Positions 2,707 through 20,771 of a DNA stretch of 64,000 bases are shown one piece after another. The position numbers and the translations under genes are program-made. Origin of the DNA: Acidobacteriota bacterium. GTDB lineage: Bacteria; Acidobacteriota; Terriglobia; Bryobacterales; Bryobacteraceae. The stretch's first letter is position 1, and every line of letters starts with the position of its first letter. The stretch is from assembly GCA_016213725.1 (NCBI GenBank), contig JACQZS010000135.1:1-64000 (forward strand), in the 5' to 3' direction. A model generated the notes under the pieces. The model was not told the origin of the DNA. It saw nothing but the letters and a program-made list of their open reading frames with translations, and made no database searches.

Positions 2707-3807
2707 CTAGTTGACGGCCCACACATCGTATTCTGCAAGCGGCTTCGTACGTCGACGAAGGAACGCATCGGCTTGCCGCTTTCCCGATGCGGCAGTACCA
2801 GCTTGGATGATAGTTCTTATTCGCCAACCGCTACCCGAGAGCGAACTCTTAATGATGTCTAAGGGACTCGCCTTTCGATCGGAGATGCCACCGAAACGGA
2901 TCACCATGCGAGCATCGGAGGTGCAGACACGGGCCGCATTGCGCCAGACGGTCGCAAGGTCCGCAGCGAACGCCTCTGGACTCGAATGGACGACCTGATC
3001 CATGTTCGTATAGTCTACGGCAGCGGGGCCCCCAACAAACCAATTGCGGAGCCACTGATCTGGCCGGTAGGTTCGCATGCCGTAGTAGGGCGGCGATGTG
3101 ATGATCCATCGGAACTTGGCGCCCGGGGCTTCAGGTTGCATCGATTCTTGTTGCCTGCTATCCGCCAGCCGGCACTGGCCCACCCCCGTGGGCACTGCAG
3201 AGAAGTAACGTTTGGCGCGTCGCTCAATTACTGCCTTAGTATCCACGAATCGAGGTCTCTCGCCGCGTTCACGCCAGTATTTGATTGAATAGGCAGGCTT
3301 AGGCGCATACGTGCGCGGGCTTTGATTCGACAGATATCCTGGAAACGCTTTCTGCTGTGGACCGTGCAGTGCGCCCAAGATGATGCCGCGCAACGCGAGT
3401 CGAGCCTCCGTCGGGCCGTCTGCAAGGAATGCTTCACGCAGTCGACAAATGGCATCGAGTGTATCGCGATGGAAAGCCCACTCCCAAAACTCACCCTCGG
3501 GGATCAGCCGAGGAGGGGGGCCAGCCAGAATGCTGCGCAACTCCCGCATGATCTCAGGTACACTCGTTTCCACCAATTTGGCAGCCGTTATAGCTGCAGC
3601 AACAGGATTAGAGTCTATTCCGAGTGATGGCAGCCCGAAAATGCGAGCTGCAAGATTCGTGGTGCCGCGACCGCAGAACGGATCGAGGACCCGATCGCCC
3701 TGCGAAGCCCTCTTGCCGAGGATAGCCAGTGGGAAGTCAAGCGGGAACATCGTGAAATACGGACACAGTCCGTTCAAAGCCGCTTGCCCGTTGAACTGAG
3801 TTAGCAT
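2707..3807 (-). CDS. DNA methyltransferase (N4/N6-type, SPPY motif)
   Basis: DPFCGRGTTNLAARIFG (motif I) and ITSPPYYGMRTY (motif IV); ATG directly follows the HerA stop codon. Confidence 0.85.
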   Translation of the reverse strand: MLTQFNGQAALNGLCPYFTMFPLDFPLAILGKRASQGDRVLDPFCGRGTTNLAARIFGLPSLGIDSNPVAAAITAAKLVETSVPEIMRELRSILAGPPPRLIPEGEFWEWAFHRDTLDAICRLREAFLADGPTEARLALRGIILGALHGPQQKAFPGYLSNQSPRTYAPKPAYSIKYWRERGERPRFVDTKAVIERRAKRYFSAVPTGVGQCRLADSRQQESMQPEAPGAKFRWIITSPPYYGMRTYRPDQWLRNWFVGGPAAVDYTNMDQVVHSSPEAFAADLATVWRNAARVCTSDARMVIRFGGISDRKASPLDIIKSSLSGSGWRIRTIIQAGTAASGKRQADAFLRRRTKPLAEYDVWAVN

Positions 3808-5943
3808 CTATCGCTTCCTTCTGACGTAGCTGGTGTTGTTCTTGTTCTGGTTTCTGTAAGCTTCCCAGCTTTCATTCTGCGGCCCAAACACTCTGGTCAT
3901 CGCCTTAGCGACGAGTTGGTACGCGAGTTGGTTACGGTCATCCATCTCCGGTGGAAGGTGCTCCAGGAAGAACGCCTTGACCGATCCCCACGCAGCGCCT
4001 TCCGGGGAATCAATCTTGGCCATCAACTTCGAATCAGCCTGGAGCCGCCGGACCATTTCATCCTCAAGGTTCGCCATGACATCGACAGGCTCCGACTCTT
4101 CGGTGTCTGGAAACAGACTGCTCGGGGCCTCGCCGGTTGGTACCTGCACTGGGCCAACTGGTTGACGAGTGCCAGGGAAGGTCCTCCGAAGGGACTCTGC
4201 GTAGGTGTGACCCGGCGGCAAGTTGTACATCTTGTCGCGCATGGCGAAAAGCTTCTCAAAGGAGAGGACCCGCAGGCTTACGGGATACGGCTTGCCGCCA
4301 ACAGAGCTCCAAAACACGCCTTGGCCCGGAATTGGTTCGTTCAACAGTGAGCTCAGCAGGTCGTCACTAAAGTGGGCATTTGCCTTCTTGAGCGAAGTCA
4401 GATCCGCTGCGGAGAGCAGGTGAAAGATGAACCAATTATCGCCTTGGCTCAGAATCTCAACGGGGATACTGCCGGGCTGCTGCGTGATCAGGAGCGCGCC
4501 GAGATCATATTTCCGCCCCTCTTTGACCCACGCAACGTAAGGTTCCGACGCCGGCGCATTCTCGTTCAAAACAGACTGGGCCTCTTCGACTACCGCAATC
4601 GTCGGTATCGTCTTCGGGTCAGCAGCTGTGAACTCTTGCTGGTTCCGATCGAAGATCCTCCGGAGAATCAGGCCTGACAGGACGAGCGACTGGCCGCCGC
4701 GCATTTGCGATACGTCAATCACGCAGATCTTCCCCTCGGAGAGCGCGTGGACCAGCATGTCCATCAGTTGGCTGCTCTTGTCGTGGAGCATTCGGACAAT
4801 GGCGGTCATGTTTCCACGCGCAGCCAGGGCTTCAGCCTCTTGCCTCTGGGCATCCAGATCGAGCAAGTGGCAGATATCTTCAAGAGGAGTGGCGTTCCCA
4901 TTCGCGTCAATGAGGTTGACCAGAGACTCCCATCGCTCTTGCGACAATCCGCGGAGTTTCCTGACGTTTTGCTGTTCTTGACGCTCCGGTCCCAAAGCGA
5001 TGGCGATGACATCGCCTGGCCGCAGCCTCCGGATATCGAGCTTGATACCACCCGCTACAAACGATTGGTAGAACGGGCTGGGGTTCTTCCGCTCGGTGAA
5101 GACAACGAGTTTATCTTCCAAAGCAGGGACATCGCACAGCCCCGGCCTCCCCTTGTCATCGGGCCAGAAGTATTCGCCGTCAGGGTCGAAGATTACTGTG
5201 CCGACAGGCACCTGTTTTCCCGCGCGCTTGGTGACATGTGGAGTGGTCTCGTAGAGCTTGGCGAATAGCAGCTTGTTCAGATTCGACTTGCCAAATCCCG
5301 CGCGAGCAAAAACGAAGCTCCTGCGCGAGACGAGTGACTCCATTGGAAACCGGACAAGCACTTCTGGTTGCAGAATCTGCATCCAGTCCTGCGCCTCTAC
5401 CTGGGCATTTCCGCCAGCGTAGATGTACTCGCCGAACGCCAGGTGACCTATGGGCGCCCCCCCGATGTTGTGCCCGGCGATTTCCTGGAGAACGTCTTCT
5501 GAAGGGAAGGCGACCTTGCTTCCGACATGGGGCAAACGCCGATGGGAAGGGACGAACGTCAGTCCTTTCCCGTTCTTCCGGAGCACGCCGAGGACCCTGA
5601 TATTGACCCGGTATTTGAGGTACTGTTCCCGGAGGTCTTCGGGAATCGCGCGCTCCTCTCGTACCGCGCGAATGTTGAATTCCTCGCCAGACCCGAACGA
5701 CAACTTGCCCTCTGATGAGAAGGACGCGATGCGGCCGAGCACTGCCTCATCCGGAGTTTCGAGCTGCACGAGGAGGAACTGGCCGTGCATGGGGATGTTT
5801 TGAAACTCGTTACGGTAGGGCAGCACTAAGTCCGCGTGGAACTCGAGGCCCCCTTGCTGGAACCCGCGAAATATACCTACAACCTGGTCACGCGGAAAGA
5901 GTTGGAACTCGGTGGTTCTTGCCGTTGCTTGATTTTCGGGCAT
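3808..5943 (-). CDS. HerA-like ATPase/helicase (DUF87-type)
   Basis: SRRSFVFARAGFGKSNLNKLLFAKLY Walker A; TIAVVEEAQSVLN Walker B; GALLITQQPGSIP sensor region; 711 aa. Confidence 0.85.
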   Translation of the reverse strand: MPENQATARTTEFQLFPRDQVVGIFRGFQQGGLEFHADLVLPYRNEFQNIPMHGQFLLVQLETPDEAVLGRIASFSSEGKLSFGSGEEFNIRAVREERAIPEDLREQYLKYRVNIRVLGVLRKNGKGLTFVPSHRRLPHVGSKVAFPSEDVLQEIAGHNIGGAPIGHLAFGEYIYAGGNAQVEAQDWMQILQPEVLVRFPMESLVSRRSFVFARAGFGKSNLNKLLFAKLYETTPHVTKRAGKQVPVGTVIFDPDGEYFWPDDKGRPGLCDVPALEDKLVVFTERKNPSPFYQSFVAGGIKLDIRRLRPGDVIAIALGPERQEQQNVRKLRGLSQERWESLVNLIDANGNATPLEDICHLLDLDAQRQEAEALAARGNMTAIVRMLHDKSSQLMDMLVHALSEGKICVIDVSQMRGGQSLVLSGLILRRIFDRNQQEFTAADPKTIPTIAVVEEAQSVLNENAPASEPYVAWVKEGRKYDLGALLITQQPGSIPVEILSQGDNWFIFHLLSAADLTSLKKANAHFSDDLLSSLLNEPIPGQGVFWSSVGGKPYPVSLRVLSFEKLFAMRDKMYNLPPGHTYAESLRRTFPGTRQPVGPVQVPTGEAPSSLFPDTEESEPVDVMANLEDEMVRRLQADSKLMAKIDSPEGAAWGSVKAFFLEHLPPEMDDRNQLAYQLVAKAMTRVFGPQNESWEAYRNQNKNNTSYVRRKR

Positions 5944-5957
5944 TGGGGCTCCTGTCG

Positions 5958-7100
5958 TTAGCGGTATCGTCCTTGGGCTGGGTCGGCATCCTGGAGTTGG
6001 AACGCATCCAAAGTTCCGGCATCTACACCGAGACTGCCGCGAACGCCTTCATAGATAAAGTCCTGCAGGACATCAAAGTCGAAGTCAACCAGAGCCGCGT
6101 TCTCGTGGGCCTTCTGGAGACAACGCGGGTAGTGGGGCACGGGGAAGCCATTGATCGCATCAGCCAACATTGAGCCGAGTACAACCTGAGAATCCTTCAC
6201 CTGAGACAGAAAGATATCGACCGGCCAAATCGGGTCTCTACGCTGGGATCCAAACTTCACGAGGAACATCTTCCCACCGACGAATTTGTTGATCTCCCCG
6301 CCTTCGCCCGCACGATCGTCACCACGTGCGAACTCGGACCAAACGTATGCTTTCTCTTCCACGTCCCGCGGAACCTCGACGTAAGCCGGATAGTCACTCT
6401 GGAGCACGCCCTCGAGTGCCATCGCGAGGCGATAGCGGGAGAGAACCTTGCTGTGCTTCGCAACACCTGCCAGATAGATCCTCCGCCGGCTTCGTTCCCA
6501 TTGGGCCTCGATGCGGTCTTTCATGCCGGCGAGAAGCTTCGGGAAGAGGTCCCCGGCGAACACCTTACTGCGCAACAGGCCGTCGCACACGATGAGCGTG
6601 TCGGTACCGAAATCCTTCTTAAGGATCGAAAACAGGATGGCCCACTCCACCAGTTCCCGATAGACCTGCACCCAACTGGGTGACACGGGCTTGCCCTTTT
6701 GGCTTGGGCGGATCATGTGTGAGAGAGCCGGGAGGGTGCTGACGCCCAGATAGGACATCATTTCTCCCAGCGCAGTGCGAGCGGAGCCGTCACCATTGAA
6801 CTGCCGAGAGTCGAGTTTCACAATCTCGGTAGTCGGCGAGACTGCCTCCAGACAGTATTCGTTATCGCTGCTATCGACCACCCGGACCAACTGAACCAGG
6901 AACGGGTCGAACTGAAGCTGGTTATTGCCACCGTCCGTGCCGACGAGCGAAATGGATGTCGTTGCCCGGGGTTGAATTCGCCGGGTCGCACTTCTGAGCG
7001 GTCGAATTTCGGCGCGCAGGGTATCCAAAACGTCCTGATCCGCACCGATACAGTCGGCGATCGCGTCTTTCAGGTCCTTGATAGTTTCCGGATCAAACAC
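5958..7100 (-). CDS. NurA-like nuclease domain protein
   Basis: ISLVGTDGGNNQLQFDPFLVQLVRVVDS resembles the NurA DG-rich N-terminal motif; TLIVCDGLLRSKVF; 14 nt upstream of HerA in the transcribed direction; GTG start. Confidence 0.68.
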   Translation of the reverse strand: MFDPETIKDLKDAIADCIGADQDVLDTLRAEIRPLRSATRRIQPRATTSISLVGTDGGNNQLQFDPFLVQLVRVVDSSDNEYCLEAVSPTTEIVKLDSRQFNGDGSARTALGEMMSYLGVSTLPALSHMIRPSQKGKPVSPSWVQVYRELVEWAILFSILKKDFGTDTLIVCDGLLRSKVFAGDLFPKLLAGMKDRIEAQWERSRRRIYLAGVAKHSKVLSRYRLAMALEGVLQSDYPAYVEVPRDVEEKAYVWSEFARGDDRAGEGGEINKFVGGKMFLVKFGSQRRDPIWPVDIFLSQVKDSQVVLGSMLADAINGFPVPHYPRCLQKAHENAALVDFDFDVLQDFIYEGVRGSLGVDAGTLDAFQLQDADPAQGRYR

Positions 7101-7228
7101 TTGCCCTCCTGCCTTTGCACGAACCTGCGGTCGGCTCTGGTCTTGCGCTCCTCGAACATCGCGAGGACACGCTGTGTCCGTTCACGCTCGGCGGCGTTGA
7201 AGTCAAGCCATGCGAGGGTGGACTCCAT
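7067..7228 (-). pseudogene. Short ORF (MESTLAWLDFNAAERERTQRVLAMFEER...) resembling the N-terminus of DUF6361-family proteins; likely truncated
   Basis: 53-aa reading frame in the gap between the STAND and NurA genes; resemblance is from memory of the family N-terminus. Confidence 0.35.
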
Positions 7229-7242
7229 AGAATCTCAAGGCC

Positions 7243-9531
7243 TTACACCCTGGCTCCCCGACCTCTCGGGGCCGGAATCAGGAACGAGCCGTGCTTTTGG
7301 ATTAGGATCTGTCGCTGCCGCTCAACTTGAGGGTCGCCGGGGTGTTCCGCCTCCCAATCCTCAAGCCACCGATTTCGTTCGCGGGTGTCACCGAGCATAT
7401 CGAGGCAGATGACGGCCGCACAGTAAATGGCAGAGCTGATCGCTCGTTCGCCGCCGCTCAGTGCCTCGGGCGACTTGATATATGCCTTTGCGTCGTCAGC
7501 GGCCTCACGCCACATTTTTTCCGCTTTCTCCCGATGCATGCCCCGATGGAAATCAAAGCCAGCCTGCTTCTTGGCAAAGATCTTGCGCTCCATCACTTCA
7601 TAGAAATCCGGGAATACCTTGATGGCTCGATCGGCGACGGAGATTGCCCTGGACCATTCTTTCTCCCCGATCTCCATTCCAACCCACTGCAGGTACATGT
7701 CTCTGCGACCGCTCTTCAGCTTTGCGGCCGACTCGAATTGTGTCCGTGCGTCAGCCAGGCGGCCCATACGCTTATAGACGTAGCCGAGGAAACTGTGTAG
7801 ATCAGGGGCCTGTGGATACTTTTCGAGAGCTTCTAACAAGATCTGCTCCGACTCTTGGTATCGGTCCGCGTTCAGGCGAAGTTGGGCCTGTCGGATGAGT
7901 GCGCCCACCATGCCGGAAGCGACTTCGGGCATTTGTCCCCTGAGCATCTTGCTGGCGCGCTCAATCCGGGCATAGAAGTCACTCTGGCCCTCGACGAGCC
8001 GGACCAACTTCTTCGTGTTCAGGTTGATATCGAAGCGCTGTTCAGCTTCGATCACTTTGGGCTTGGGAAACAGGAATAGCGTCTGCAGCTCAGAGAGCGC
8101 CGAAAGCAGACGATCCTCCGACATTTCTAGAATGCTTTCGAGCTCAGCGTATGAAATCGGCCCGTCGGTTACGGCGGCGGCGACAAGGATCTTCTTCCCG
8201 TCCTGTGAGAGTCTTTCCATCTCCCTCTGCAGTGCGTACTTCCGGGCCTCGTCGCCACGACGTTCAGCCCATGTGCTCAGTGCTTTCTTGACATCAACGA
8301 TTCTTGTCAAACGCAGGAGATCATCCATGTAGAGCGGGGAACCGTCGGTCACCTTGACCAGCTCCGAGATTACCTGAGGTGTGAATTGCTGGCCGTCGAG
8401 CCCATAGAGATGGACCCGCGAGCGAATGAAGCTCTCTGCCTCGTCCTTCTCAAAGCCCTTCACCACGTAGCTGCGAACCCCAGGTATGTCACGCCGAGAG
8501 GTCAGCAGCACTGCCGACTGCGTGTGTGGGATTTCGTACGTGAACAGGCTGACCACATCGCTGTCTTCAAGAAGGGTGTCAATATCGTCGCCGACGATGA
8601 AGGCTGGATAGGAATTCAGGTAGTCTAGGAGGAGGCGCTTTCTCTCCTCGAAGGGTTTCGAGAAGTCGTCTGTAACCGCTCCGTATTCGGACAGCAAACG
8701 ATTGACGGCATCGTCGACTGTTGAGAAGTCGGGGGAATCGATGCTCACAACCTTACCTTCTTGGAACCGGCGGCGCTTCGCGCTGAGCCAGACGATGAGT
8801 TGGAAGCGCCCAGGAGCGTCGGCCAACTGCTGTGCATACCGGTAGGCTACAGCCGACTTGCCTTTGCCGCCGTCGCCAGCCAGGAGGCAACGACGGTTGT
8901 CCAACTGGTCGAAGTGCGACTTGACCTGCTCCAGCAACCCCGTCCGGCCGACGAACTCCATGTAGATCGAATCCTGCGGCGGCAGTTGCCGCAGGGCAGA
9001 TGCTCCCGCAGTTGGCCCCCCAGCCAGACTATCCCTCAGCTTGGCGAGTTCGGCGGCCTCAACCGACAGACCGAGCGCATCCAGAATCTGCTTAGCATCA
9101 ACCAAGAGGCCGAAAGCTTCATCGTAGGGAACCTCCTCCTCGACCGGGTGGGACAGAGGGTCACGACAGTCTTTCATCTGCTTGAGGTTGCCGAGGAGCT
9201 TACTCTTGACGGGACGGGGTTGAGTTGAGGGATGCCCCCCGTTGGCAGAGAAGATCTTATCGAAGAAGCGATCGAAGATTTCGAAGAAATGATTGACACC
9301 GAGAAGATCATAGTCGTCCCGGATTGTCGTCGCTGTCCCGCCGGTCTCCCGAGACTGAGTCGCGTTGGTCGCGGCTTTCGTCCAGCTCTCACCGAAGAGC
9401 CGCTTCATCTGCTGCAGGTGGTCGTTCGGAAAGGCTCGTGGCAGGCGCTCCCGAATAAAGCCAACCATGGCGTTGCGAAACACTCGCTGGATGCCTTGAT
9501 AACAGATCGCGTTATTGTCAAGCATTTGCAT
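7243..9531 (-). CDS. STAND/NB-ARC-type NTPase with N-terminal HEPN-like (Swt1-type) domain and C-terminal TPR repeats
   Basis: CLLAGDGGKGKSAVAYRYAQQL (P-loop), YPAFIVGDDIDTLLED (Walker B), DCRDPLSH (R-x4-H), TPR-like helices LLEALEKYPQAPDLHSFLGYVYKRMGRLADARTQFESAAKL; likely start ATG at 9531 sharing 1 nt with preceding stop (TGATG). Confidence 0.8.
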   Translation of the reverse strand: MQMLDNNAICYQGIQRVFRNAMVGFIRERLPRAFPNDHLQQMKRLFGESWTKAATNATQSRETGGTATTIRDDYDLLGVNHFFEIFDRFFDKIFSANGGHPSTQPRPVKSKLLGNLKQMKDCRDPLSHPVEEEVPYDEAFGLLVDAKQILDALGLSVEAAELAKLRDSLAGGPTAGASALRQLPPQDSIYMEFVGRTGLLEQVKSHFDQLDNRRCLLAGDGGKGKSAVAYRYAQQLADAPGRFQLIVWLSAKRRRFQEGKVVSIDSPDFSTVDDAVNRLLSEYGAVTDDFSKPFEERKRLLLDYLNSYPAFIVGDDIDTLLEDSDVVSLFTYEIPHTQSAVLLTSRRDIPGVRSYVVKGFEKDEAESFIRSRVHLYGLDGQQFTPQVISELVKVTDGSPLYMDDLLRLTRIVDVKKALSTWAERRGDEARKYALQREMERLSQDGKKILVAAAVTDGPISYAELESILEMSEDRLLSALSELQTLFLFPKPKVIEAEQRFDINLNTKKLVRLVEGQSDFYARIERASKMLRGQMPEVASGMVGALIRQAQLRLNADRYQESEQILLEALEKYPQAPDLHSFLGYVYKRMGRLADARTQFESAAKLKSGRRDMYLQWVGMEIGEKEWSRAISVADRAIKVFPDFYEVMERKIFAKKQAGFDFHRGMHREKAEKMWREAADDAKAYIKSPEALSGGERAISSAIYCAAVICLDMLGDTRERNRWLEDWEAEHPGDPQVERQRQILIQKHGSFLIPAPRGRGARV

Positions 9532-10439
9532 CACCCTTCGATGAACAACTGTTGCTGCTGTACCGGCTTGCCTCCGGTTCTTCGCCGATCCCGCGGTTCG
9601 AACCTGGTGTGCTCGGCCAGGCCCAGCAGAGCCTCCACTTGACCGGCGGCACGCATTACCTGGTACACGTCGATTTGGTCGATCGTGGTGTTGTCCCGGA
9701 CATAGTCCTTCAGATACGTCTCCGACGCAGACTGAACGCCGTTCCGAGCGCAAACGAGATACGCCACGGATTCGGCCTCGAGTTCTGCTTGTGTGTGGTC
9801 AGGTCGGGGACGCTCTGGCACGTTCAGCTTCTTGTCTGGCCCAAGATGACCGAGAAACAGGTGCGCCAACTCATGGGCCACCGTCGTGAACTGCACGGGT
9901 GGCTGGTGGTTGCGATTGACGTGCATCCGATACTCTGTGGCCTCTTTGTCGTCTGCGGGCCGCTTGATCACCCGGATGGAGCCCGCCCGCTGGTCGCCGG
10001 CGTCGACCAGACACCAATCGATGTTCTTCCGCCGAAGCGGTTCGGCGAAGGATGCGATTCTCTCCGCGTCGACCGGTCCCTGTGCGTAGAAGGAGAAGAC
10101 ATCTCGAGGCAGTTCGGCACCTTCCGTATCCACGACGTCATACACAAGTGCGACCGGCCCAAACGGCCACAGGATCAAGAGCGGACGCACGCCGTCCTTG
10201 GGTTTCCTTCCAAAACGAACCTGCCAGTCAAAGGCCGAAGCCGCGAAGCGCAAGCCGGGCTTCTGGACTTGGAGAAGCATGGCATTGAACGGTGCGAAGT
10301 TGCGCATCCGGGCCACGAACTCAAGCAGTTGCTGATAGTCCTTGCTCTTCGTGTAAAGCCGCGAGTCAGTTAGCAGCTGATCCAATAGGGACCGGGTGGC
10401 GTCGTTTTCGAAAGGGATCGATTGAGAATCGTTTTGCAT
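9531..10439 (-). CDS. ArdC-like N-terminal domain plus HExxH zincin (ImmA/IrrE/ArdC-type)
   Basis: LLEFVARMRNFAPFNAMLLQVQKPG (ArdC N-terminal-like), VAHELAHLFLGH (HExxH), AELEAESVAYLVC. Confidence 0.75.
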   Translation of the reverse strand: MQNDSQSIPFENDATRSLLDQLLTDSRLYTKSKDYQQLLEFVARMRNFAPFNAMLLQVQKPGLRFAASAFDWQVRFGRKPKDGVRPLLILWPFGPVALVYDVVDTEGAELPRDVFSFYAQGPVDAERIASFAEPLRRKNIDWCLVDAGDQRAGSIRVIKRPADDKEATEYRMHVNRNHQPPVQFTTVAHELAHLFLGHLGPDKKLNVPERPRPDHTQAELEAESVAYLVCARNGVQSASETYLKDYVRDNTTIDQIDVYQVMRAAGQVEALLGLAEHTRFEPRDRRRTGGKPVQQQQLFIEG

Positions 10440-10453
10440 TGTGGCTCAGCGCC

Positions 10454-13400
10454 TCATACCACCGCTTCCGCAGCACCTGGCAAGCCCAGCGCGGTCCTGA
10501 GCTGATCGACACACACCTGAGGGGTGCTGAAAATCTGTGGGCCAAGAAAGCGAAGGACTATCCATCCGTCGGCCTGGAGCAGGTTGGACTGGCGGCCGTC
10601 ATGTATGCGCTGGCGCAGCGAGGAGTGGAACTCCATGCCGTCGGCGTAAATCAAGATCCTTCGTGGTGTGGTGTAAGCAAAATCCGCTCGCGTCAGTAGT
10701 CTGCCTAGGCCATCGCGAACTTCATGCTGCTTCGCCGGCTCGGGGAGGCCGGCGGCACGTATCGCCCTGAGCAGGGCCAACTCAATCGGAGATTCACAGC
10801 CCTCGCGGCGCGCCTCCTCCCACTCCGGCCCTTCCGTTGGCACCGGGGCGACCGGCGTCGCAATCGGCGACAAACCGCTCGCGGCCGCGACGCGCAAGTA
10901 GGGCATCGCCAACCGCCAGTTCAGCAGACCGTGCACCCGCTGATTCCGATAGCTGCGGAGGCACCGGTAGCAGGACGCAGGACAGTCATGCCCATCAAGG
11001 TGGCGGATCGCTGCCTGCACGACCGAGTTGAACTCTCGCAAGAGCCCATCAATCACTCCGGCGCCGCCCAATACCTTGTCGGCGAAGAGGATCTCCAGCG
11101 CTCGCGACCGGCCATCGGCATCGCGCGCGGTAAGCACCATGACCTCAAGATCGTCATCGTTGAGTTCGAAGTGCTTCAGTGCCCCTTCCAGAAGCGCCGC
11201 ACCGATGGACCAAGCCCAGGACACGCCGTCTTCGTGTTGCTCGGCAAGTCCAGGAACAATCAGACGAAGAGTATCGGCCCTTCCCTGGTGCCCCAATACA
11301 ACTTCACGGGGTTCGCCGTTACAGCGCTGGGCATGGGGATCCTGGTCGGCGCGCGGATCGCGCGCTTGCCGCCGGCCCCGTTGCGGTTGACCCTCCGGAG
11401 GATGCACGGGACGAACCCACTCGCCACACGTGCCGCAGAGGCGGAATGGCTCGGGCCGCCCGCCGTTTCTTGGAGCGTCACCATCCGGGCTGTTGTCTAT
11501 GGAGCCGTGGTTGACCCACCAGATCTGCTCCTGCCGCCTTTTCTCGAGCCGCCAGGCACCCAGCGCCCATGCCTCGGCCGGCACATCCCGCTGAGGATGC
11601 GACCGCACATCGTACACCCCCTGTTGGCGCTCTTCCTCGCTGTCCGGCTCCACTTCGTCGAGCCAGGCCTGAAATGCCGCAGCATCCCACGCCTCCTGGT
11701 TCGCGCCTGACAGTTCCGCATTGCATCGACGGCAATTGTTGTTCGAAGCCTGCGCAAGCCCGCAAACGGGACACTCCGTATACACGAATCGTTCCGGGCC
11801 GCGTCCCGTGCCCAGCGCCCCGGGGCGGTTCAGTGCCAGACCGCGGACTCTCCAGCGGTGCCCCCGGGCGTAGACTGTCTGGCCGGGACAGAACTCTCGT
11901 TGCGCCTGCATCCTTCCGGCAAAGATAACGTCCGGGTCAAGACCCAGCGACAGAGACCCCGGGTCCCCGGGGAAGGCGTAACCCGGAAGCAGGCCGGCCT
12001 CAGCCAGAACTGTCGGCAGATAGGAGTACTTGTAGTCTGCGCGAAGCTTCTGGGCGAGACGCCGGTAGGATGCCTCCGTAATCTCCTCCGCGCGATTCAG
12101 CCCAACCCTCGTGCCGAGCTCACTCATTCGGCGCACAGCCTCGGCAATCAGGGCCCCACGTTGCTCGATCACACCACGCACGCGACGAGGAAACCCTGAA
12201 ACGACGGATTCCAACCATTTCGCCGTAACGCCCGGCACTGCCCCAAAGATCTCCTGAGCGCGAGCGCGTGCTGGCGGCGCGGCCTGTTCGAGTCGCTGGA
12301 CCAGGACGTTCATGTTGCTTTCGATCACGGTTCCACGATCCGTCAGTAACGGTTCGAGGTTGCTCGCGAATTCGAGGGCCGCCTCTTCCACCACCAGGCT
12401 ATTCACATGCCGTTCGATCGCCGCCAGATTCTCCAGATTGAACCGGGGCGGCGGGATCGCGCCGGAGATCACTTCGTCGGGGTGGTCGAAGAAGTAGCCA
12501 TCGTGCGGTGTGCCTCGGGCGAACCCAGCGATGATGCCCGTGCGCGTTTCTCGTCCCGTCCGGCCCGCCCGCTGTGCGTAGTTGGCGGGGCTGGGTGGCA
12601 CGTTGCGCATGGCCACCCCCTCCAGATCGCCGATGTTCACGCCGAGCTCGAGCGTCGGTGTGCAAACAAGAACATTCGGGCGCGGTGGGTTCTGCTTGAA
12701 GCCCTCCTCCGCTCGCAAACGTTCTTCCTCTGTAACGGCGGCGGAATGTTCGCCCGGCAATAGGGCCGGGGCGTAAGGCGCCGCAATCGAACGCGCATGC
12801 AGGTTTCGTTCTACTAAGGCGCCAGCGTAAACCTGCATGGTCCCGCTACATCGGGGTCGCGCGCACCCCGCCCCGATGGAGCCATTGGCCTCGATTCGGC
12901 CGCACACGACACAGCGCGCGTAGGTCCCGGCCACGCAGACTTCAATCACGTCGTGCCGTAGAAGCAGCCCTTCGGCTTCTCCCGCATTCCTGCCAATTCG
13001 ACCTCTCACCAGGAAACGGCCGCCCTCCAGCAGCCACCGCAACGCGGCGTCGAGTGACGCTTCCGTTGCCTGATCACCCAGGCTCTGCCGCCACACGCTC
13101 TGCGGACCAGCCGGCATGCCCGTCCGGTTCCAGCAACCGAAAAGCTTGTAGGTCTGCCGCTGTTCCGAGCTGAGTCCTGGATCACGGAACGCAACCGGAA
13201 TGCCGACTTCCCGCCCGGGGGTGATGTCATACTCCCGGGCCGTCGAGTCATTCCCTCGCAAATAGCGCCGCAATGCCTCGTGGGATACCGCACGCCGAGT
13301 TCGGAAGAGATCCAGCAATCGCTTCACCGCCGTCCGCGCGCGGCCCAAGTCGAGACCCTGCGTCCGAACGAGTTCAGCAAATTCCTCCCCTTCGAGTTCC

Positions 13401-15562
13401 TCGTCAAGGAGCGAATAGCGGATCTCCACCAATCCAAGCCGCTCCAGGCTCTGGCGGACGTTCGGGGCGATGACGAATTCATGCAGGAGTGCTCCGTCGA
13501 GCTTCCTTCTCCGCCGCTCCCGCTCATCCCGGCTGCAACGAGCCGTATAGTCCCCGGCCCCGACGTACTCCTCGTGGATGCGATCTTCCAGCCAGCGCAA
13601 GTCATGTGGCTGCGGCGCTCCCGCAAGCGACCCGTAGATGAACCGGCGGAGCCTCAGTAGCCTCTCCGCCCCTTCGATGAACCGTGCTTGGTGAGCAGCG
13701 TCCTGCCGGCTGTCGGTAAAGATCAGCAGTTTCCTCCGCTGCTGGGGAAGCTCGCGCAACAGAGTGCGTGAAACATGCGTGAGCGCGGAGGAATTCCCAA
13801 GGCTCACCGAGGTGATGACGTCGAAACGGCCGTACCGGCTCCGGCACACGGGGCAGTTAGTCCCGCGGCCGCGCAGCAAGCGCACCGGCCGGAGTGGCGT
13901 ACTGCAGCCACAAGCCCGTTCCTCTGGGTTCTCGGTCAGCACAAGACACTGCGGGCATAGCCAGTGCGTGGCATCGGGTACTTCTGGCTGAGCCGGTGCA
14001 TCGTCGCCGGCGCTCTCTTCGCCTTCTCCCTCCTCGGGGAGGTCCTCCGGCTCCACTTCAACCGTGGCACCGGGCGGGTCATAGACGAAAGTCGTTCTTC
14101 GGCTGGACCGCCGGGAGAGCCATGGCGCAAGAGCGGATGCGCCGCCGCTATAATCTTGCTCCCGCCCAACGAAAAAATCCCATCCACACGTGCGACACAG
14201 CGCGAGCGGCAACGACCGGCTGCCGCATGCGTCGCAGGTTTCCACGCCGGAGTCCAGCAGTTTCCCGCAGTCCGGGTTCGTGCAGCGCCAGAAGCGCGCC
14301 AAGCCGCGTAGGAAACGATGGACACGCGGGCGCAGGCGTAGCGGATTGTCGGGCGGGAGACACGGTCCGGCCAGAAGCGCCGCCTGGATTTCTCGTTCTA
14401 AGGCTTCCGGTGCAACTCCCTGTCGCTCCTGCCGCTCCGCCAGCCTATCCCTCACCCATGACACCGGCCGCGGCTCCTTCAGCCAATCGAGCAGCAGGTA
14501 GGGCAAGAGGCTAGACTCCCAACAAGCCTCGACCGTCGGGAGATCCTGCCTGGCCAACTTGCGGGCAAGCGACAGGACCCGTTGGTTATCGTCGGGGTCA
14601 AATCCTTGCAGGTCCTGGCCGGTGAGGTCAGGAGGAGGCGGGAGGCGCAGTCCTTCGGGAGGTTGTGGGACGATTGACTGCTCCCGAATCACCGCATCCG
14701 GCGGCGTCGGCTGTCCCGTCAGCCGAGTGAAAAAGTCAGCCACCCCCTGGCGCGGATCTCCGTCGCCGGATTGCAGTGTGGCGGAAGTACCAATGAAGAC
14801 CGGACTGGCTTGGCCGAGTGCGGCCCGGAGGCGCCGCAGAAGGCAGGCGACATCCGTCCCCAGAGCGCCCTTGTAGGTGTGCACTTCGTCCAGCACGATG
14901 AACCGAACCGCATGGTTCTTGAAGATGGCCCTGCCGTCGCCGCGCAGCAGCAGGTATTCGAGCATCCGGTAGTTGGTGAGCAGAATATCCGGAGGATGCG
15001 CGCGAAACTCAGCCCGGGTGAGACGTTCGTTATCGGGTATTCCCTCGGGGCGCTGGCCTGTCCATTGTCGAGTCTCCCCCGTGTAGACGCCGAAGCCTAC
15101 CTTTGTGCCGGTCAGCAATCGGCGGATTCGGTCGCGCTGGTCATTGGCCAGCGCGTTCATCGGATAGACGATCACGGCCTTCACCACGTCCGGCTGGGCC
15201 GCACGTAGGCAGTGGTCGATGATTGGCATCAAGAACGCTTCTGTCTTGCCCGACCCCGTCCCGGTTGCGATCACCGTAGGCTCGCCCGCCAGGATTCGCC
15301 GGGTGGCCGCCGCTTGGTGAGAGTACGGCGTCTCGGCGATGGCTCCGATGCGCTGGCGCGTTTCCGGCAATAGCTCCGTGAGCGCCGGGCCATTCGCGTA
15401 CGGCAGCGCCAGCGAGACAAACGGCTCCCGGGTGAGAAATCCCTCGCGCTCTACTGCCGTGCGGAAGTCCTGCTTCAACCGCTCCTGGCGCGGCGCGAAC
15501 GTGGTGGTCAGCAACTCCAGGTAATCCGTACGAAGTTGCTCGGCGATGCGGAGCGGGTTCAT
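10454..15562 (-). CDS. Very large DEAD/DEAH helicase with DUF1998 region (YprA/DruE/DrmA-B-like) and C-terminal DUF559/Vsr-like nuclease-like domain
   Basis: VIATGTGSGKTEAFLMPIIDHCLRA, LDEVHTYKG, RAGRTGRE; Cys clusters incl. CPASCYRCLRSYRNQRVHGLLNWRLA; C-term ESPIELALLRAIRAAG...LTRADFAYTTPRRILIYADGMEFH...DGWIVLRFLG; likely ATG at 15562 overlapping upstream stop (ATGA). Confidence 0.85.
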   Translation of the reverse strand: MNPLRIAEQLRTDYLELLTTTFAPRQERLKQDFRTAVEREGFLTREPFVSLALPYANGPALTELLPETRQRIGAIAETPYSHQAAATRRILAGEPTVIATGTGSGKTEAFLMPIIDHCLRAAQPDVVKAVIVYPMNALANDQRDRIRRLLTGTKVGFGVYTGETRQWTGQRPEGIPDNERLTRAEFRAHPPDILLTNYRMLEYLLLRGDGRAIFKNHAVRFIVLDEVHTYKGALGTDVACLLRRLRAALGQASPVFIGTSATLQSGDGDPRQGVADFFTRLTGQPTPPDAVIREQSIVPQPPEGLRLPPPPDLTGQDLQGFDPDDNQRVLSLARKLARQDLPTVEACWESSLLPYLLLDWLKEPRPVSWVRDRLAERQERQGVAPEALEREIQAALLAGPCLPPDNPLRLRPRVHRFLRGLARFWRCTNPDCGKLLDSGVETCDACGSRSLPLALCRTCGWDFFVGREQDYSGGASALAPWLSRRSSRRTTFVYDPPGATVEVEPEDLPEEGEGEESAGDDAPAQPEVPDATHWLCPQCLVLTENPEERACGCSTPLRPVRLLRGRGTNCPVCRSRYGRFDVITSVSLGNSSALTHVSRTLLRELPQQRRKLLIFTDSRQDAAHQARFIEGAERLLRLRRFIYGSLAGAPQPHDLRWLEDRIHEEYVGAGDYTARCSRDERERRRRKLDGALLHEFVIAPNVRQSLERLGLVEIRYSLLDEELEGEEFAELVRTQGLDLGRARTAVKRLLDLFRTRRAVSHEALRRYLRGNDSTAREYDITPGREVGIPVAFRDPGLSSEQRQTYKLFGCWNRTGMPAGPQSVWRQSLGDQATEASLDAALRWLLEGGRFLVRGRIGRNAGEAEGLLLRHDVIEVCVAGTYARCVVCGRIEANGSIGAGCARPRCSGTMQVYAGALVERNLHARSIAAPYAPALLPGEHSAAVTEEERLRAEEGFKQNPPRPNVLVCTPTLELGVNIGDLEGVAMRNVPPSPANYAQRAGRTGRETRTGIIAGFARGTPHDGYFFDHPDEVISGAIPPPRFNLENLAAIERHVNSLVVEEAALEFASNLEPLLTDRGTVIESNMNVLVQRLEQAAPPARARAQEIFGAVPGVTAKWLESVVSGFPRRVRGVIEQRGALIAEAVRRMSELGTRVGLNRAEEITEASYRRLAQKLRADYKYSYLPTVLAEAGLLPGYAFPGDPGSLSLGLDPDVIFAGRMQAQREFCPGQTVYARGHRWRVRGLALNRPGALGTGRGPERFVYTECPVCGLAQASNNNCRRCNAELSGANQEAWDAAAFQAWLDEVEPDSEEERQQGVYDVRSHPQRDVPAEAWALGAWRLEKRRQEQIWWVNHGSIDNSPDGDAPRNGGRPEPFRLCGTCGEWVRPVHPPEGQPQRGRRQARDPRADQDPHAQRCNGEPREVVLGHQGRADTLRLIVPGLAEQHEDGVSWAWSIGAALLEGALKHFELNDDDLEVMVLTARDADGRSRALEILFADKVLGGAGVIDGLLREFNSVVQAAIRHLDGHDCPASCYRCLRSYRNQRVHGLLNWRLAMPYLRVAAASGLSPIATPVAPVPTEGPEWEEARREGCESPIELALLRAIRAAGLPEPAKQHEVRDGLGRLLTRADFAYTTPRRILIYADGMEFHSSLRQRIHDGRQSNLLQADGWIVLRFLGPQIFSTPQVCVDQLRTALGLPGAAEAVV

Positions 15563-15984
15563 CGTTTCCTCCGGTAGTTCACAACTCCCCAGCACTGGCT
15601 TCGGGTGCGATGCTTGCCCTTGATGCTGACCTCTACATACTGCCAGTCCTTCTGGCCGCACTCTTGGACGTACCAAGTGATGAAGTGACGAAACAGCTCC
15701 GTGGCGCGCAACTCGCTGTCTTCAATCCCGTCAGCTTGATAAACCAGGACAACAGGTCCGTGCAGTATTTCGTCCTTCGTCAGTTGAGGCAGAAAACCCA
15801 CATCTCTCGTTATCAGCAACGCCTGACGACGAGAAGCTAAACGCCAAACAGCTTTATCAGCAATGCCACTTTCATGCTCGGCGATCCAATAGACTGAGTA
15901 CCCGAGTTGCTCGAGCGCGGTGACGATCTCCCGAGGTATGTTCTCGTCCGCGACAACTGATTTGGGCAGTGGCAAGGCTCTCAT
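15559..15984 (-). CDS. DUF5615-type PIN-like toxin
   Basis: SVVADENIPREIVTALEQLGYSVYWIAEHESGIADKAVWRLASRRQALLITRDVGFLPQ (ADEN...ITRD..F pattern); overlaps upstream and downstream genes by ATGA. Confidence 0.8.
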   Translation of the reverse strand: MRALPLPKSVVADENIPREIVTALEQLGYSVYWIAEHESGIADKAVWRLASRRQALLITRDVGFLPQLTKDEILHGPVVLVYQADGIEDSELRATELFRHFITWYVQECGQKDWQYVEVSIKGKHRTRSQCWGVVNYRRKR

Positions 15985-18900
15985 TCTCCTGACAGTGAAC
16001 GGAGCGCAGCGGCCAGATGCATTTCACTCAACTGCGGGAAGGACGCCGCGATCTCAGCAAACGTATGTCTTCCCAGTAATGAGCGAGCCTGAGCCAATTC
16101 AATCCGCGTACCTCGCAGTGTCGGAGACCCGCTGCAGATCTCCGGATTCCGTACAATCCACTCCTGCCAGTCAGGCGGCAGGTCAGGGGGTTGGTATGGG
16201 CCGTTCGGATCCCACTTCTTCGCCTTGCTCGGGATGTAGGCGATGGCGCCGCGGCGGTGGTACTCGGCGACGCGGGCTTCCAGGTTCCGGATGGGGCCCA
16301 TGCGGTAGGGGCAGGATTCGTCGTCGACCATGTTCACCTGAACTTCGTCGCGATACCAGGCGGCCAGATCCTCGGGCGGGGCGATGCCGCGGTGGTGGAA
16401 GTAGGCCAGCAGCGCGGTGTCGCGAGTGACGTAGGAGCGCGGTTCCAGTTTCGGCTTGCCCTCCTTGTTCCAGCGGACGAACAAGTCGTCCGGCAGCGAC
16501 GGCTGATCGCGGTCGAGGAGCGGGAAGGTGGTCAGGATGTAGCCGAACTCGGAGGGCGAGAGGTCGTAGAGACCGGCGACGATGGTGTCGATCTCGGCGC
16601 GCAACCGGGCGCGCTCCCGGAGGTCGACGGCGGGCTCGGCCAATTGGATTTCGGGCGTGATGGAGACGAGGCGCGCTGCGCGCGCAAGTGCATCGCTGAA
16701 GCCCGCAGATTCCTGCGGTGGACGGAGCAGTGGCCACGACTCGACGTAAAACAGGTTCAGGTGCGTTGAGATTTTCTGGCGGATGAGAAAGTCGCCAACC
16801 AGCGAGTTGGCGAATGCCAGCCAGACCAGGTGGCAGTTCGTGCCCGAGGTCATCACCGTTGGCACGGAGTTCCCAGCAGCCATTCCACTGGGCAGCAAAG
16901 TCGCCAGCGCCGACCGTTCGTTGGTCTGGCCTGTCACATCACAGAACCCTGCCCGCTCTCCGACCGGGTAATCTACTTCGTTGATGTAGAAGTGCGGGAC
17001 GAGCGATTTCTCGTTGAGCGCAAGATCCCGCCATTTTGCGCCGCGACCCTCGCCGGCTTCGTACGCCTTTGCCGCGTGATCGAATTGATGGACCATGCGC
17101 CCTTCGTAGAGCGGGACGTAGCGGGCACCGGGAACGACTGGCATTTCGTGTTCGTCCGCCGCGCGCGACCGCCGCAGGAAACCGGCAACTGACTGAACCC
17201 GCTGCCCACGATTGCCTTTCTTCTTGTCTTCGTCAAGTGGTTTCACTGAGGTGATCCGGTATTTCGTACCCTCCGGCACGATGTAGCGGATACCCGGAAC
17301 ATACTCAGCCGAATCTCCATACGATTCCGATGGTGGAGCGACGAAGACACTGCCTTCAGAGCGACAGTCATATTCCAGAAGCCAATCGCGACGCCGGAAG
17401 CGCCACGCGTCGTCCGTCATGTTCAGTTCGCGGTGGAATTCGACGTTCCATGCCCCCGGCCCCTCGAGTTTCTTGGACAAGGGCGGCACGGACCGGTAAA
17501 CACGCTCAACGAGGCCGCGTTCCTTGTCGTCCCGGAGTTCGGTGATGGACTGGTACACAGGACTTGTGAGATTGATGAACTCGCTCGTGATCCGGACCGA
17601 GCGAGCCCGACGTTCTTGCTCCGACAGAGTCAGGAATCCCTCGTTTCGGAGCATGAATGCGGCTGGGAAAGACTGCTTCTGGGTGCGCCTCTTTTCGAAA
17701 ACCAAGGTCAGGAACTTGAAACTGGGATGGATCTGGAAGAACCGTTTCCCCCAGTTCTCGAATGAGTAAATTGATTCGACAAGAGCCTCCGCGAAAAGGA
17801 GTCGCCTCAAACCCGTGGCTCCCTCGAGTGAGTAGAGACCAGCGGGCATCAGGATGGCGACATGTCCGCCTTCCCGAGAGAGTCTGTGAAAACGCTCCAA
17901 GAACAGTTTGAATAGATCGGGCTTGCCGCCAGTCTTCTCACCATTGACTTCGACCACCTGGTGCAAATACGCGCCGCCGCCGATTAGCAACTTCGCGAGA
18001 CTCGCCTCCAGTCCGTTGTAGGTCTCCCACCGCTCATGAGCCGCCGATCCCGGCGGTGCAAGCTGCGCGATTCGCCGCGCGAGAGTCTGCCCCTGAAAAT
18101 CACGAATTGCCGGGTCGTATTGGGCGAAGAACTCCTTTCTCTTTGGTTCCAACTTGTCCCACGGCGGATTCCCCACCATCGCGTCGAAGCCGGGGCGCAC
18201 GCGCCGCCGAATGCCCTGTCCTTCCATTTCCGGCTCGAAGAACAGTTCCGGGAATGCCAGCTCCCAACAGAAGGCGCGGACCTCCTTCCCCTTCGCGATG
18301 GCAACCGCCGCAGAAGTGCGGGTCTCGGCACTGACGTGGTGCTGGTCTTGAATCTCCTGCATCCAGCGATTGGCTAGCATCGGATCAGCTCCTGGGTCGT
18401 TACCGTCGAGAAATGCTCGGCCGATTCGCAGGTGGTGCGCCTCCACAAACTCCGCCAGTTCCTGTTGCATGGTCAGCCAGGCTTGCTGCTGATCCTCGAA
18501 GTCGCCGGGCTGTTCGGTTTCGAGCCTTTCGATCTCGCGCAAGTGGCGGAAGGCCCGAAGGAGACGGGCGTTCAGTTCGTCGCGGCTGAAGTAAAGCCCC
18601 AACCCGCCCTGCGCAGTCTCGTCGCCGGTCAGCGCCTTCTTCACCTTCTTCTGGTAAAACGTGCGCAGCAGGTCCTCCACCGTGATGCCGAGGAGCGAAT
18701 CGCCCGACACCAGGCGGTGATTGAGGAAGGTCAGCGGGTGGTCGGACGCGGCGGTGGCGAGCCACAGCGAAACGCGCGCCAGTTCCACCGCGAGCGGGTT
18801 CTTGTCCACACCATACAGGCAGTGGAAAGCCGCCAGGCGGCGGCAGGCGGCCAATTCGGCTGGCTCGTTGCCCCACACCCTCGACACTTCGGCGTGTATG

Positions 18901-20771
18901 CCCGCATCCAGCAACAGTTCGTGCGGATATGCGTCGCGCCCGGCAGCTTCGGCGCGTGACTTCTCTTCGGCGTACCGCGCGCGGTAAGCGGAGAGCAGGT
19001 GTTCGGCCAAGCGGCGGCATGCGCCTACCAGAAAGTGCCCGGAACCCATGGCCGGGTCGCAGACCGAGAGCTTCAGTATCTCTTCGGGCCGCTTGTCTTC
19101 CGCCAGAGGATCGACCGCGCGGCGCACCAGATATTCGACGAAGGCGCGATTAGTGTAGTAGGAGCCGGACTGTTTGCGGCCGAGCCCGGGGCGCAGCACC
19201 ACCGAGCCCACCGGAATCGGATTCGGCGCCTCAGGCGTCGCCGGCAGGACCCGGATCGGTTTCTTCTTGCCGGTGGCGACGGGTTCGACATCGGCTTCCT
19301 CGGCAGCTTCGTCTGCGTCGTCCTCCGATGGCTCGGCCGAATCGTCGTCTTCTTCGTTCTCTTCGAGTTCGAGCGTGGCTCCGCCCGTTTCGCCGCGGCG
19401 CTTGCGCAGGTCGGCGAGTTGGGATGCGGTCACCAGGACCACGTCCCCATCAAGCCGGATGCGCCACAGCGGACCGCTCTGCTCGTCCACCGCGTCGACG
19501 GTCCGTTCGAGCAGACCTTCGTAGAGAGATCCGAGTTGTTCGACGTCGAGTTCGCGGTAGGACAGCGTGACCTTGCCGCGCTTGGTCTGGACGTGGGTGA
19601 GCGCCTCCAGGACGTGGGCGACCGTGCGGTCGCCGAGACGCAAGTCGTCCAGTTCCGGATATTGGCAATCCGGATCACGATGCGGGTGGAAAAGGCCGCC
19701 GCCATAGGCGGGGATACGGCCTTCCGGACCGAGGTCTGCGCCGTCGCGTAGGAGGCGGAAGAGCGCGCGGAGGCTCAGTTCGTAGAAACCGCCGGCGGCC
19801 TCGGCGTTGACACGCGGGTCCGTGGCACGGTCCATCACGCGGCGGACCAGGCCGCGCGCGCCGGAGAGCGCGTATCCATCACGGTATGCCGGCATGTCGA
19901 GTGGCAGCAGGCCACGGGCCTCGGCGTAGAGGACGAACAGAATTCGGTAAAGGTACTGCAGCGCGCCCGCATGCAGGTGTTCCAGCAGCGCGCGGCGGCG
20001 CGAGGGATCTTCGAGGAACGGGGCGAGCGCTTCGTGGTTGGCGGGATGCGAGAGGGCTCCTTCGAGCAGGCGCTCCACGGCGGCGGGAACCTGCGAGCCG
20101 AGATTGTCGCCGACTTCCTGCTGGTGCTCGCGTCCTAGTCGGACCACCTCATCGAGCAGCGCAGGCGCGGAGGACCAGGCTTCGGCGCGCAGCAATCCCC
20201 AGATCAGGTTCCAGGCGTCGCGTGCGCCGGGGACGTCTCCCGCCAGGTCCAGCAGACTGAAAGCGAGGTGCGAGGAGACGAAACCTTCGCTGCGCCGGAC
20301 CAGGCGCAGTTCGTAGGCGTTCAGGAGAATGCCCCAGGTGAGACCTTCCTGTTCGAGGACGCGAACCAGGCTATGGGCGGGCGCGAACCGGCGATGCAGG
20401 CCTTCGGGCGGCAGGTCGAGAGAGGATTCGGCGGGCACAGACAGAACCCGGGCAACGATGTTCTTCCCGTCGTCGACCGAAAGCGTCTGACTGCCGTCCT
20501 CTTCGCCGAGACTGGTCGCTACGACCGACGGCTCGCCTAGTTCCCAGTTGAGAAGCCGAGCCAGCGGGTCCAGAAGAACGCGGCGGGTGACCCGGGCCTG
20601 GCGGCTGCCCCGCATTTCCCGGTGGGCGCCGCGCAAGGCGCTGCTAAATTCGCGCCAGGATCGGTCTGCGCCCGACGAATCCAGACGAGGTAGGAGCTTA
20701 CTGTCCGAAGGGAGGATGCGCCGGAGGAAATACTCACTGAAGGCGTCGCCTTGAACCTGAAAGGCCTCCAT
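15981..20771 (-). CDS. Type IIG/PglX/DrmMI-like adenine-specific DNA methyltransferase with C-terminal DUF433-like domain
   Basis: VCDPAMGSGHFLVGACRRLAEHLL (motif I), FDAMVGNPPWDKLEPKRKEFF (NPPW); C-terminal 66 aa WIVRNPEICSGSPTLRGTRIELAQARSLLGRHTFAEIAASFPQLSEMHLAAALRSL fits DUF433. Confidence 0.88.
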   Translation of the reverse strand: MEAFQVQGDAFSEYFLRRILPSDSKLLPRLDSSGADRSWREFSSALRGAHREMRGSRQARVTRRVLLDPLARLLNWELGEPSVVATSLGEEDGSQTLSVDDGKNIVARVLSVPAESSLDLPPEGLHRRFAPAHSLVRVLEQEGLTWGILLNAYELRLVRRSEGFVSSHLAFSLLDLAGDVPGARDAWNLIWGLLRAEAWSSAPALLDEVVRLGREHQQEVGDNLGSQVPAAVERLLEGALSHPANHEALAPFLEDPSRRRALLEHLHAGALQYLYRILFVLYAEARGLLPLDMPAYRDGYALSGARGLVRRVMDRATDPRVNAEAAGGFYELSLRALFRLLRDGADLGPEGRIPAYGGGLFHPHRDPDCQYPELDDLRLGDRTVAHVLEALTHVQTKRGKVTLSYRELDVEQLGSLYEGLLERTVDAVDEQSGPLWRIRLDGDVVLVTASQLADLRKRRGETGGATLELEENEEDDDSAEPSEDDADEAAEEADVEPVATGKKKPIRVLPATPEAPNPIPVGSVVLRPGLGRKQSGSYYTNRAFVEYLVRRAVDPLAEDKRPEEILKLSVCDPAMGSGHFLVGACRRLAEHLLSAYRARYAEEKSRAEAAGRDAYPHELLLDAGIHAEVSRVWGNEPAELAACRRLAAFHCLYGVDKNPLAVELARVSLWLATAASDHPLTFLNHRLVSGDSLLGITVEDLLRTFYQKKVKKALTGDETAQGGLGLYFSRDELNARLLRAFRHLREIERLETEQPGDFEDQQQAWLTMQQELAEFVEAHHLRIGRAFLDGNDPGADPMLANRWMQEIQDQHHVSAETRTSAAVAIAKGKEVRAFCWELAFPELFFEPEMEGQGIRRRVRPGFDAMVGNPPWDKLEPKRKEFFAQYDPAIRDFQGQTLARRIAQLAPPGSAAHERWETYNGLEASLAKLLIGGGAYLHQVVEVNGEKTGGKPDLFKLFLERFHRLSREGGHVAILMPAGLYSLEGATGLRRLLFAEALVESIYSFENWGKRFFQIHPSFKFLTLVFEKRRTQKQSFPAAFMLRNEGFLTLSEQERRARSVRITSEFINLTSPVYQSITELRDDKERGLVERVYRSVPPLSKKLEGPGAWNVEFHRELNMTDDAWRFRRRDWLLEYDCRSEGSVFVAPPSESYGDSAEYVPGIRYIVPEGTKYRITSVKPLDEDKKKGNRGQRVQSVAGFLRRSRAADEHEMPVVPGARYVPLYEGRMVHQFDHAAKAYEAGEGRGAKWRDLALNEKSLVPHFYINEVDYPVGERAGFCDVTGQTNERSALATLLPSGMAAGNSVPTVMTSGTNCHLVWLAFANSLVGDFLIRQKISTHLNLFYVESWPLLRPPQESAGFSDALARAARLVSITPEIQLAEPAVDLRERARLRAEIDTIVAGLYDLSPSEFGYILTTFPLLDRDQPSLPDDLFVRWNKEGKPKLEPRSYVTRDTALLAYFHHRGIAPPEDLAAWYRDEVQVNMVDDESCPYRMGPIRNLEARVAEYHRRGAIAYIPSKAKKWDPNGPYQPPDLPPDWQEWIVRNPEICSGSPTLRGTRIELAQARSLLGRHTFAEIAASFPQLSEMHLAAALRSLSGE

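Follow-up and report, generated by a model that had tools for sequence, protein, structure and literature searches.

A HEPN-STAND-TPR protein, predicted to be an NLR/Avs-like immune sensor, encoded within an ARMADA-like operon of an Acidobacteriota bacterium

We analyzed a 64,000-nucleotide stretch of contig JACQZS010000135.1 from an Acidobacteriota bacterium of the Bryobacteraceae (assembly GCA_016213725.1), referred to here as the window. A 762-residue HEPN-STAND(NB-ARC)-TPR protein (P0001) is encoded at 7243-9531 on the minus strand. It is probably a single-protein NLR/Avs-like immune sensor that is carried as an accessory of an ARMADA-like operon and would serve there as an autonomous fall-back. 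The open reading frame is intact (762 codons; ATG at 9531, stop at 7243-7245) and is supported by full-length homologues. The N-terminal all-helical domain (residues 1-172; 9016-9531) is a predicted Swt1-like HEPN ribonuclease effector based on hhalign, Pfam matches of homologues, and AF2 modeling, and it contains the R-x4-H motif RDPLSH with R123 and H128 (residues 123-128; 9148-9165). It is followed by an NB-ARC/STAND NTPase domain identified by Pfam and Foldseek (about residues 192-424; 8260-8958) with the Walker A motif (P-loop) GDGGKGKS (residues 219-226; 8854-8877) and the Walker B motif GDDID (residues 314-318; 8578-8592). The C-terminal TPR superhelix (residues 539-747; 7291-7917), a predicted sensor, is covered by Pfam TPR families and by AF2 helices with high pLDDT. 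Using Pfam on P0001, we found matches to NB-ARC (1.1e-6), TPR_14 (1.6e-7), and several TPR families in all. A first-pass annotation had proposed a HEPN-STAND-TPR gene at this location; the open reading frame, the three motifs, and the TPRs are all where it placed them, and conservation, a profile match, the STAND motifs, and Pfam support the identity that it gave.

For the HEPN assignment, we did not rely on the bare R-x4-6-H motif. Such a motif is present in 57% of shuffles of the 174-residue N-terminus (R[NDH]x3-5H in 11%), and the motif alone was therefore rejected as evidence for HEPN. The evidence consists instead of the invariance of the motif in nine family proteins together with a profile match to the Swt1-type HEPN domain. 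Among the nine proteins (P0001 included) that carry a readable N-terminal domain, just 15 of 174 alignment columns are invariant, and these include R123, D124, H128, and P129. Conservation of the R/H pair in homologues was a check set beforehand, and both R123 and H128 are kept in all nine proteins, as is the polar residue after the motif arginine (D124). The spacing is R-x4-H in six proteins and R-x5-H in three (L076, L079, and L080; Chloroflexi/Dehalococcoidia), which have one extra residue and stay within the R-x4-6-H definition. When the family profile of the N-terminal domain was aligned to that of the Swt1-type HEPN using hhalign, we obtained a probability of 95.4 (P = 1.9e-8) and a score of 53.2, while the highest of 200 column shuffles scored 21.1 and the reversed profile 13.5; the alignment of the real profiles places RDPLSHP over RNRWAHQ, i.e., motif on motif. 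In a Pfam search of residues 1-172 of P0001 with all 24,736 models, HEPN_Swt1 was the sole family (13 bits, E = 0.13), which by arithmetic corresponds to about 5e-6 for a single family named beforehand, and HEPN_Swt1 matches three of the nine family members with a best E value of 3.7e-5. P0001 on its own reached 13 bits against PF18731, which is under the cut-off, and a narrow HMM of the DUF499-type HEPN gave 1.5 bits with P0001 alone, lower than shuffled sequences; the HEPN call thus rests on the family profile.

The first-pass annotation had also named a four-helix HEPN fold as a check. The AF2 model of the N-terminal domain is all-alpha (pLDDT 80.5, pTM 0.80) with the motif directly ahead of the helix at residues 136-152, while Foldseek searches of the PDB and of viral structures with the isolated domain found no significant match and no HEPN structure among the matches listed. 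A HEPN fold is, therefore, compatible with the model and unproven. We note that the acidic residue preceding the motif in the Swt1-type HEPN (E81 of the Swt1 set; E-x3-[KR]) is not conserved and is a Lys in P0001, and that D72 and D75 are other acidic residues invariant in the N-terminal domain of the family.

The remainder of the protein is a STAND-TPR chassis. Walker A (invariant except for S/T at its last position), Walker B (DD-x-D; D315, D316, and D318), the sensor 1 motif TSR, and the GxP-type motif SPL are all invariant in the nine proteins. Using Foldseek with the full-length AF2 model (pLDDT 79.8, pTM 0.36), we recovered the STAND-TPR protein 6mfv as the top match (E = 5.6e-11) together with CED-4, Apaf-1, and plant resistosomes. 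Global TM-scores are low (0.22-0.25 for 6mfv), which is to be expected given the uncertain domain arrangement of the modeled chain.

To find homologues, we used an alignment that included three distant plasmid NB-ARC proteins (L033-L035). This query identified 21 loci among 84,980 species, while single-sequence searches of genome contigs, viral contigs, and phages with P0001 detected no homologue. Ten loci (L073-L082) belong to the same family as P0001; their proteins are 33-61% identical to it over most of the length, the N-terminal domains of the homologues are 30-61% identical, and several phyla are represented. These ten loci are mostly from Acidobacteria and Chloroflexota. L082 shares the NTPase-TPR chassis and has a CHAT domain in the N-terminal slot (4e-6), and distant NTPase-TPR relatives carry TIR_2 (L003) or Schlafen AlbA_2 (L036) in the same slot. 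The presence of TIR, CHAT, or Schlafen domains in relatives identifies this slot as an effector slot, and such an exchange of heads on an NTPase-TPR chassis is what is typically seen at the effector position of STAND immune proteins, which have a tripartite layout (PMC12931631). A second group of relatives (L033-L035 and L084-L093) has the motif RN.[VT]MH 103-105 residues ahead of the P-loop; its HEPN domain gave no above-chance direct alignment to that of P0001, and assignment to the same subfamily was rejected.

Five of the ten family loci have a neighbor that matches PADLOC models, comprising a UG19 DRT, a type IIG enzyme, a CBASS 2TM effector, and MADS-like genes. Specifically, the gene for the closest homologue (61% identity; L073, 6551-8686, minus strand) is divergent from an adjoining gene for a UG19-type defense reverse transcriptase (2.7e-158), L075 has a type IIG enzyme gene on one side and an SNF2-PLD helicase gene on the other, L078 lies near a CBASS 2TM effector, and L081 and L082 lie near MADS-like genes. 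Other family loci have metabolic neighbors, i.e., a molybdopterin oxidoreductase at L076 and a semialdehyde dehydrogenase at L080. Based on these defense neighbors and on the operon in the window, in which a start/stop overlap ties the gene into the surroundings of an ARMADA core, the family is linked to defense, yet it is also found outside ARMADA. Three of the ten family members are interrupted: L077 (10001-12316) by in-frame stops, L079 (10001-13592) as a gene in two halves separated by an antisense ORF, and L081 (4767-7054) by a frameshift. These interruptions reflect either decay or assembly errors in metagenome-assembled genomes. No PADLOC model matches P0001, and no Avs model matches the family. 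Our search of the literature returned no phage-defense assay of the HEPN-STAND-TPR family.

The P0001 gene is part of an operon of co-directional genes on the minus strand that spans 24995 to 2707, in which neighboring genes are at most about 15 bp apart except for 142 bp ahead of the NurA-like gene. In the order of transcription, the operon encodes an HTH-M78 regulator (23757-24995; Pfam M78 5e-17, HTH_3 7e-14), an ArmA-like (DrmD/BrxHII) SNF2 helicase (20775-23753; PADLOC DrmD 1e-141), an ArmB-like (PglX/DrmMI, Eco57I) methylase with a C-terminal DUF433 (15981-20771; PADLOC DrmMI and Pfam), a DUF5615 PIN-like protein between ArmB and ArmC (15559-15984; Pfam 2e-13), and an ArmC-like YprA/DruE-family helicase with an MrfA zinc domain (MZB) and a C-terminal Vsr-type nuclease (10454-15562; PADLOC DruE 1e-124, Pfam MZB and MTES_1575). 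The Vsr-type match of the ArmC-like protein to MTES_1575 (residues 1661-1730) has an E value of 2.9e-4, which is under Pfam's own cut-off. These genes are followed by an M78/ImmA-type zincin gene (9531-10439; Pfam 6.5e-6) whose stop codon overlaps the ATG of the HEPN-STAND gene in the sequence TGATG, the HEPN-STAND gene itself, a gene for a NurA-like nuclease (5958-7100), a gene for a HerA-type translocase (3808-5943; Pfam DUF87 3e-19), and, last, a gene for an N6/N4-type DNA methylase (2707-3807; Pfam 7e-11). The NurA-like nuclease was assigned based on its position before HerA; a Pfam search of its product gave no match, and a stand-alone relative lies beside HerA in another genome (G132).

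Several additional features of this operon and its borders were observed. It contains two M78 (ImmA/IrrE-type) proteins, one of them HTH-fused (9531-10439 and 23757-24995); relatives of the M78 zincin (31-33%) occur in two other ARMADA-like loci, M78 proteins are also found in the ARMADA-like loci L043 and L044, and such operons may be under the control of a protease-regulator pair. A conjugative plasmid of Cupriavidus encodes a protein with 55% identity to the M78 zincin of the window (L045, 15402-16250), located alone after a Tn3 transposase gene. The DUF433 at the end of the ArmB-like methylase (5e-8) is overlapped by the DUF5615 PIN-like gene (15559-15984 and 15981-20771, minus strand), and the two resemble a toxin-antitoxin pair whose antitoxin has become part of the methylase. 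DUF433 is missing from the methylases of L042, L043, and L044. A 52-codon ORF between the HEPN-STAND and NurA-like genes (7073-7228, minus strand) has similarity to the first part of DUF6361 (E = 0.0085) and may be what is left of a lost gene. Finally, the operon is bordered at its downstream end by IS66-like genes (52-2468), recognized from their ORFs.

The ARMADA core consists of a BrxHII/DrmD-like helicase, a PglX-like methylase, and a YprA-like helicase with a C-terminal Vsr-type nuclease (PMC12458937). The operon in the window has the same three large genes in the same A-B-C order, including the Vsr-type nuclease on the YprA homologue, and the "restriction-type operon" of the first-pass annotation can thereby be sharpened to an ARMADA-like one. 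It differs from ARMADA in having the M78, HEPN-STAND, NurA-like, HerA, methylase, and DUF5615 genes instead of ArmD; downstream of ArmC, there is no gene for the GajB-like helicase with a RelE-like domain that represents ArmD in ARMADA Type II, and the operon is thus not of that type. The main text of PMC12458937 does not mention HEPN, HerA, NurA, or M78. HEPN-STAND, NurA-like, and HerA genes are all absent from ten other ARMADA-like loci, some of which lie on short contigs, and we therefore rejected HEPN-STAND as a conserved ARMADA subunit. Conversely, none of the ten family loci is in an ARMADA operon. Because the pairing is lacking in both sets of loci, P0001 is most likely an autonomous sensor that was captured into the operon.

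Proteins with a HEPN-STAND-TPR(-S1/CSD) architecture have been described before (Anantharaman et al. 2013, PMC3710099), and the new part here is its placement in an ARMADA-like operon. P0001 shares with the published proteins the N-terminal HEPN, the STAND NTPase, and the TPRs but has no C-terminal S1/cold-shock domain; in the 2013 table, "STAND-ATPase, TPR, S1" HEPN fusions are listed as mostly active. The HEPN domain of P0001 matches the Swt1-type domain of DUF499 ATPases, in contrast to that of the second group of relatives, which does not align directly. DUF499/Hma (BREX-related type 1) HEPN-ATPases have the closest HEPN profile and also occur within R-M-like operons, whereas the ATPase of P0001 is an NB-ARC with TPRs and not DUF499/BrxC-like. 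P0001 shares a STAND core and a TPR sensor with PDB entry 6mfv, the description of which names no HEPN effector. With Avs (AVAST) proteins, it shares an N-terminal effector, a STAND NTPase, and a C-terminal repeat sensor (PMC12931631), and to this extent the label "Avs-type" of the first-pass annotation describes the layout; membership of Avs proper was rejected, as neither P0001 nor the family matches a PADLOC Avs model, and P0001 also differs in its NB-ARC-type NTPase and in having a HEPN effector rather than the Sir2 of Avs5.

In the most likely mechanism, the TPR superhelix of P0001 would bind a phage-derived (or damage) trigger, upon which the NB-ARC/STAND NTPase would change state and oligomerize. 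The clustered N-terminal HEPN domains would then cut RNA via R123 and H128, and this cleavage would halt translation or kill the cell. Co-transcribed with the ARMADA-like operon, the HEPN-STAND gene would serve as an independent backup to direct DNA restriction and not as a subunit of the restriction system.

It is unlikely, although conceivable, that P0001 is wired into ARMADA, guarding the helicase/methylase complex or sensing the DNA intermediates of ARMADA or its inhibition by phage proteins, with the HEPN RNase firing only once restriction has failed. The tight operon, with its TGATG overlap and short gaps up to the 142-bp interval, favors such wiring, as do published proposals in which HEPN is the effector of last resort, made for R-M-like BREX-related systems (PMC12839542) and for R-M operons (PMC3710099); the lack of the gene at the ten other ARMADA-like loci argues against it, as does the location of all ten family loci outside ARMADA operons, even if L075 is flanked by type IIG enzyme and SNF2-PLD helicase genes. 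The "second, suicidal layer" of the first-pass annotation is, accordingly, plausible and fits these proposals, while dedicated coupling finds no counterpart at either set of loci (0/10 each). Less likely still is that the operon represents an ARMADA variant that incorporates an NLR-type suicide module. In it, HEPN-STAND and the co-transcribed M78 zincin, perhaps with DUF433-DUF5615, would sense failure or blockage of the core and shift the response away from restriction toward an RNA-cleaving shutdown.

We also consider it doubtful that a degenerate HEPN or another helical bundle, with an adaptor or oligomerization role and no RNase activity, makes up the N-terminal domain. The Foldseek result lends no support to a HEPN fold, and catalytically inactive members of the Swt1 family are known (PMC3710099), but R123 and H128 are invariant in a domain in which most residues vary, and relatives carry enzymatic effectors in the same slot. 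Least probable among the alternatives is a role in non-defense signaling for the gene, which would then be carried passively in a defense island. STAND-TPR regulators also occur outside immunity, and the metabolic neighbors at L076 and L080 as well as the three broken homologues would fit such a role; against it stand the effector-type N-termini throughout the family, the defense genes adjoining half of its loci, and the location of the gene within a defense operon here.

P0001 belongs to a defined family that is absent from PADLOC. A single NTPase-TPR chassis bears HEPN heads in this family and CHAT, TIR, or Schlafen domains in relatives, so that the swapping of effectors on an NLR-like sensor of bacteria can be tested directly. 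ARMADA Type II is reported to act without abortive infection (PMC12458937), and the HEPN-STAND gene could therefore add a suicidal layer. With ARMADA reported to protect without cell suicide, the placement of this gene provides a concrete case in which to ask whether one transcript combines restriction and suicide as layers.
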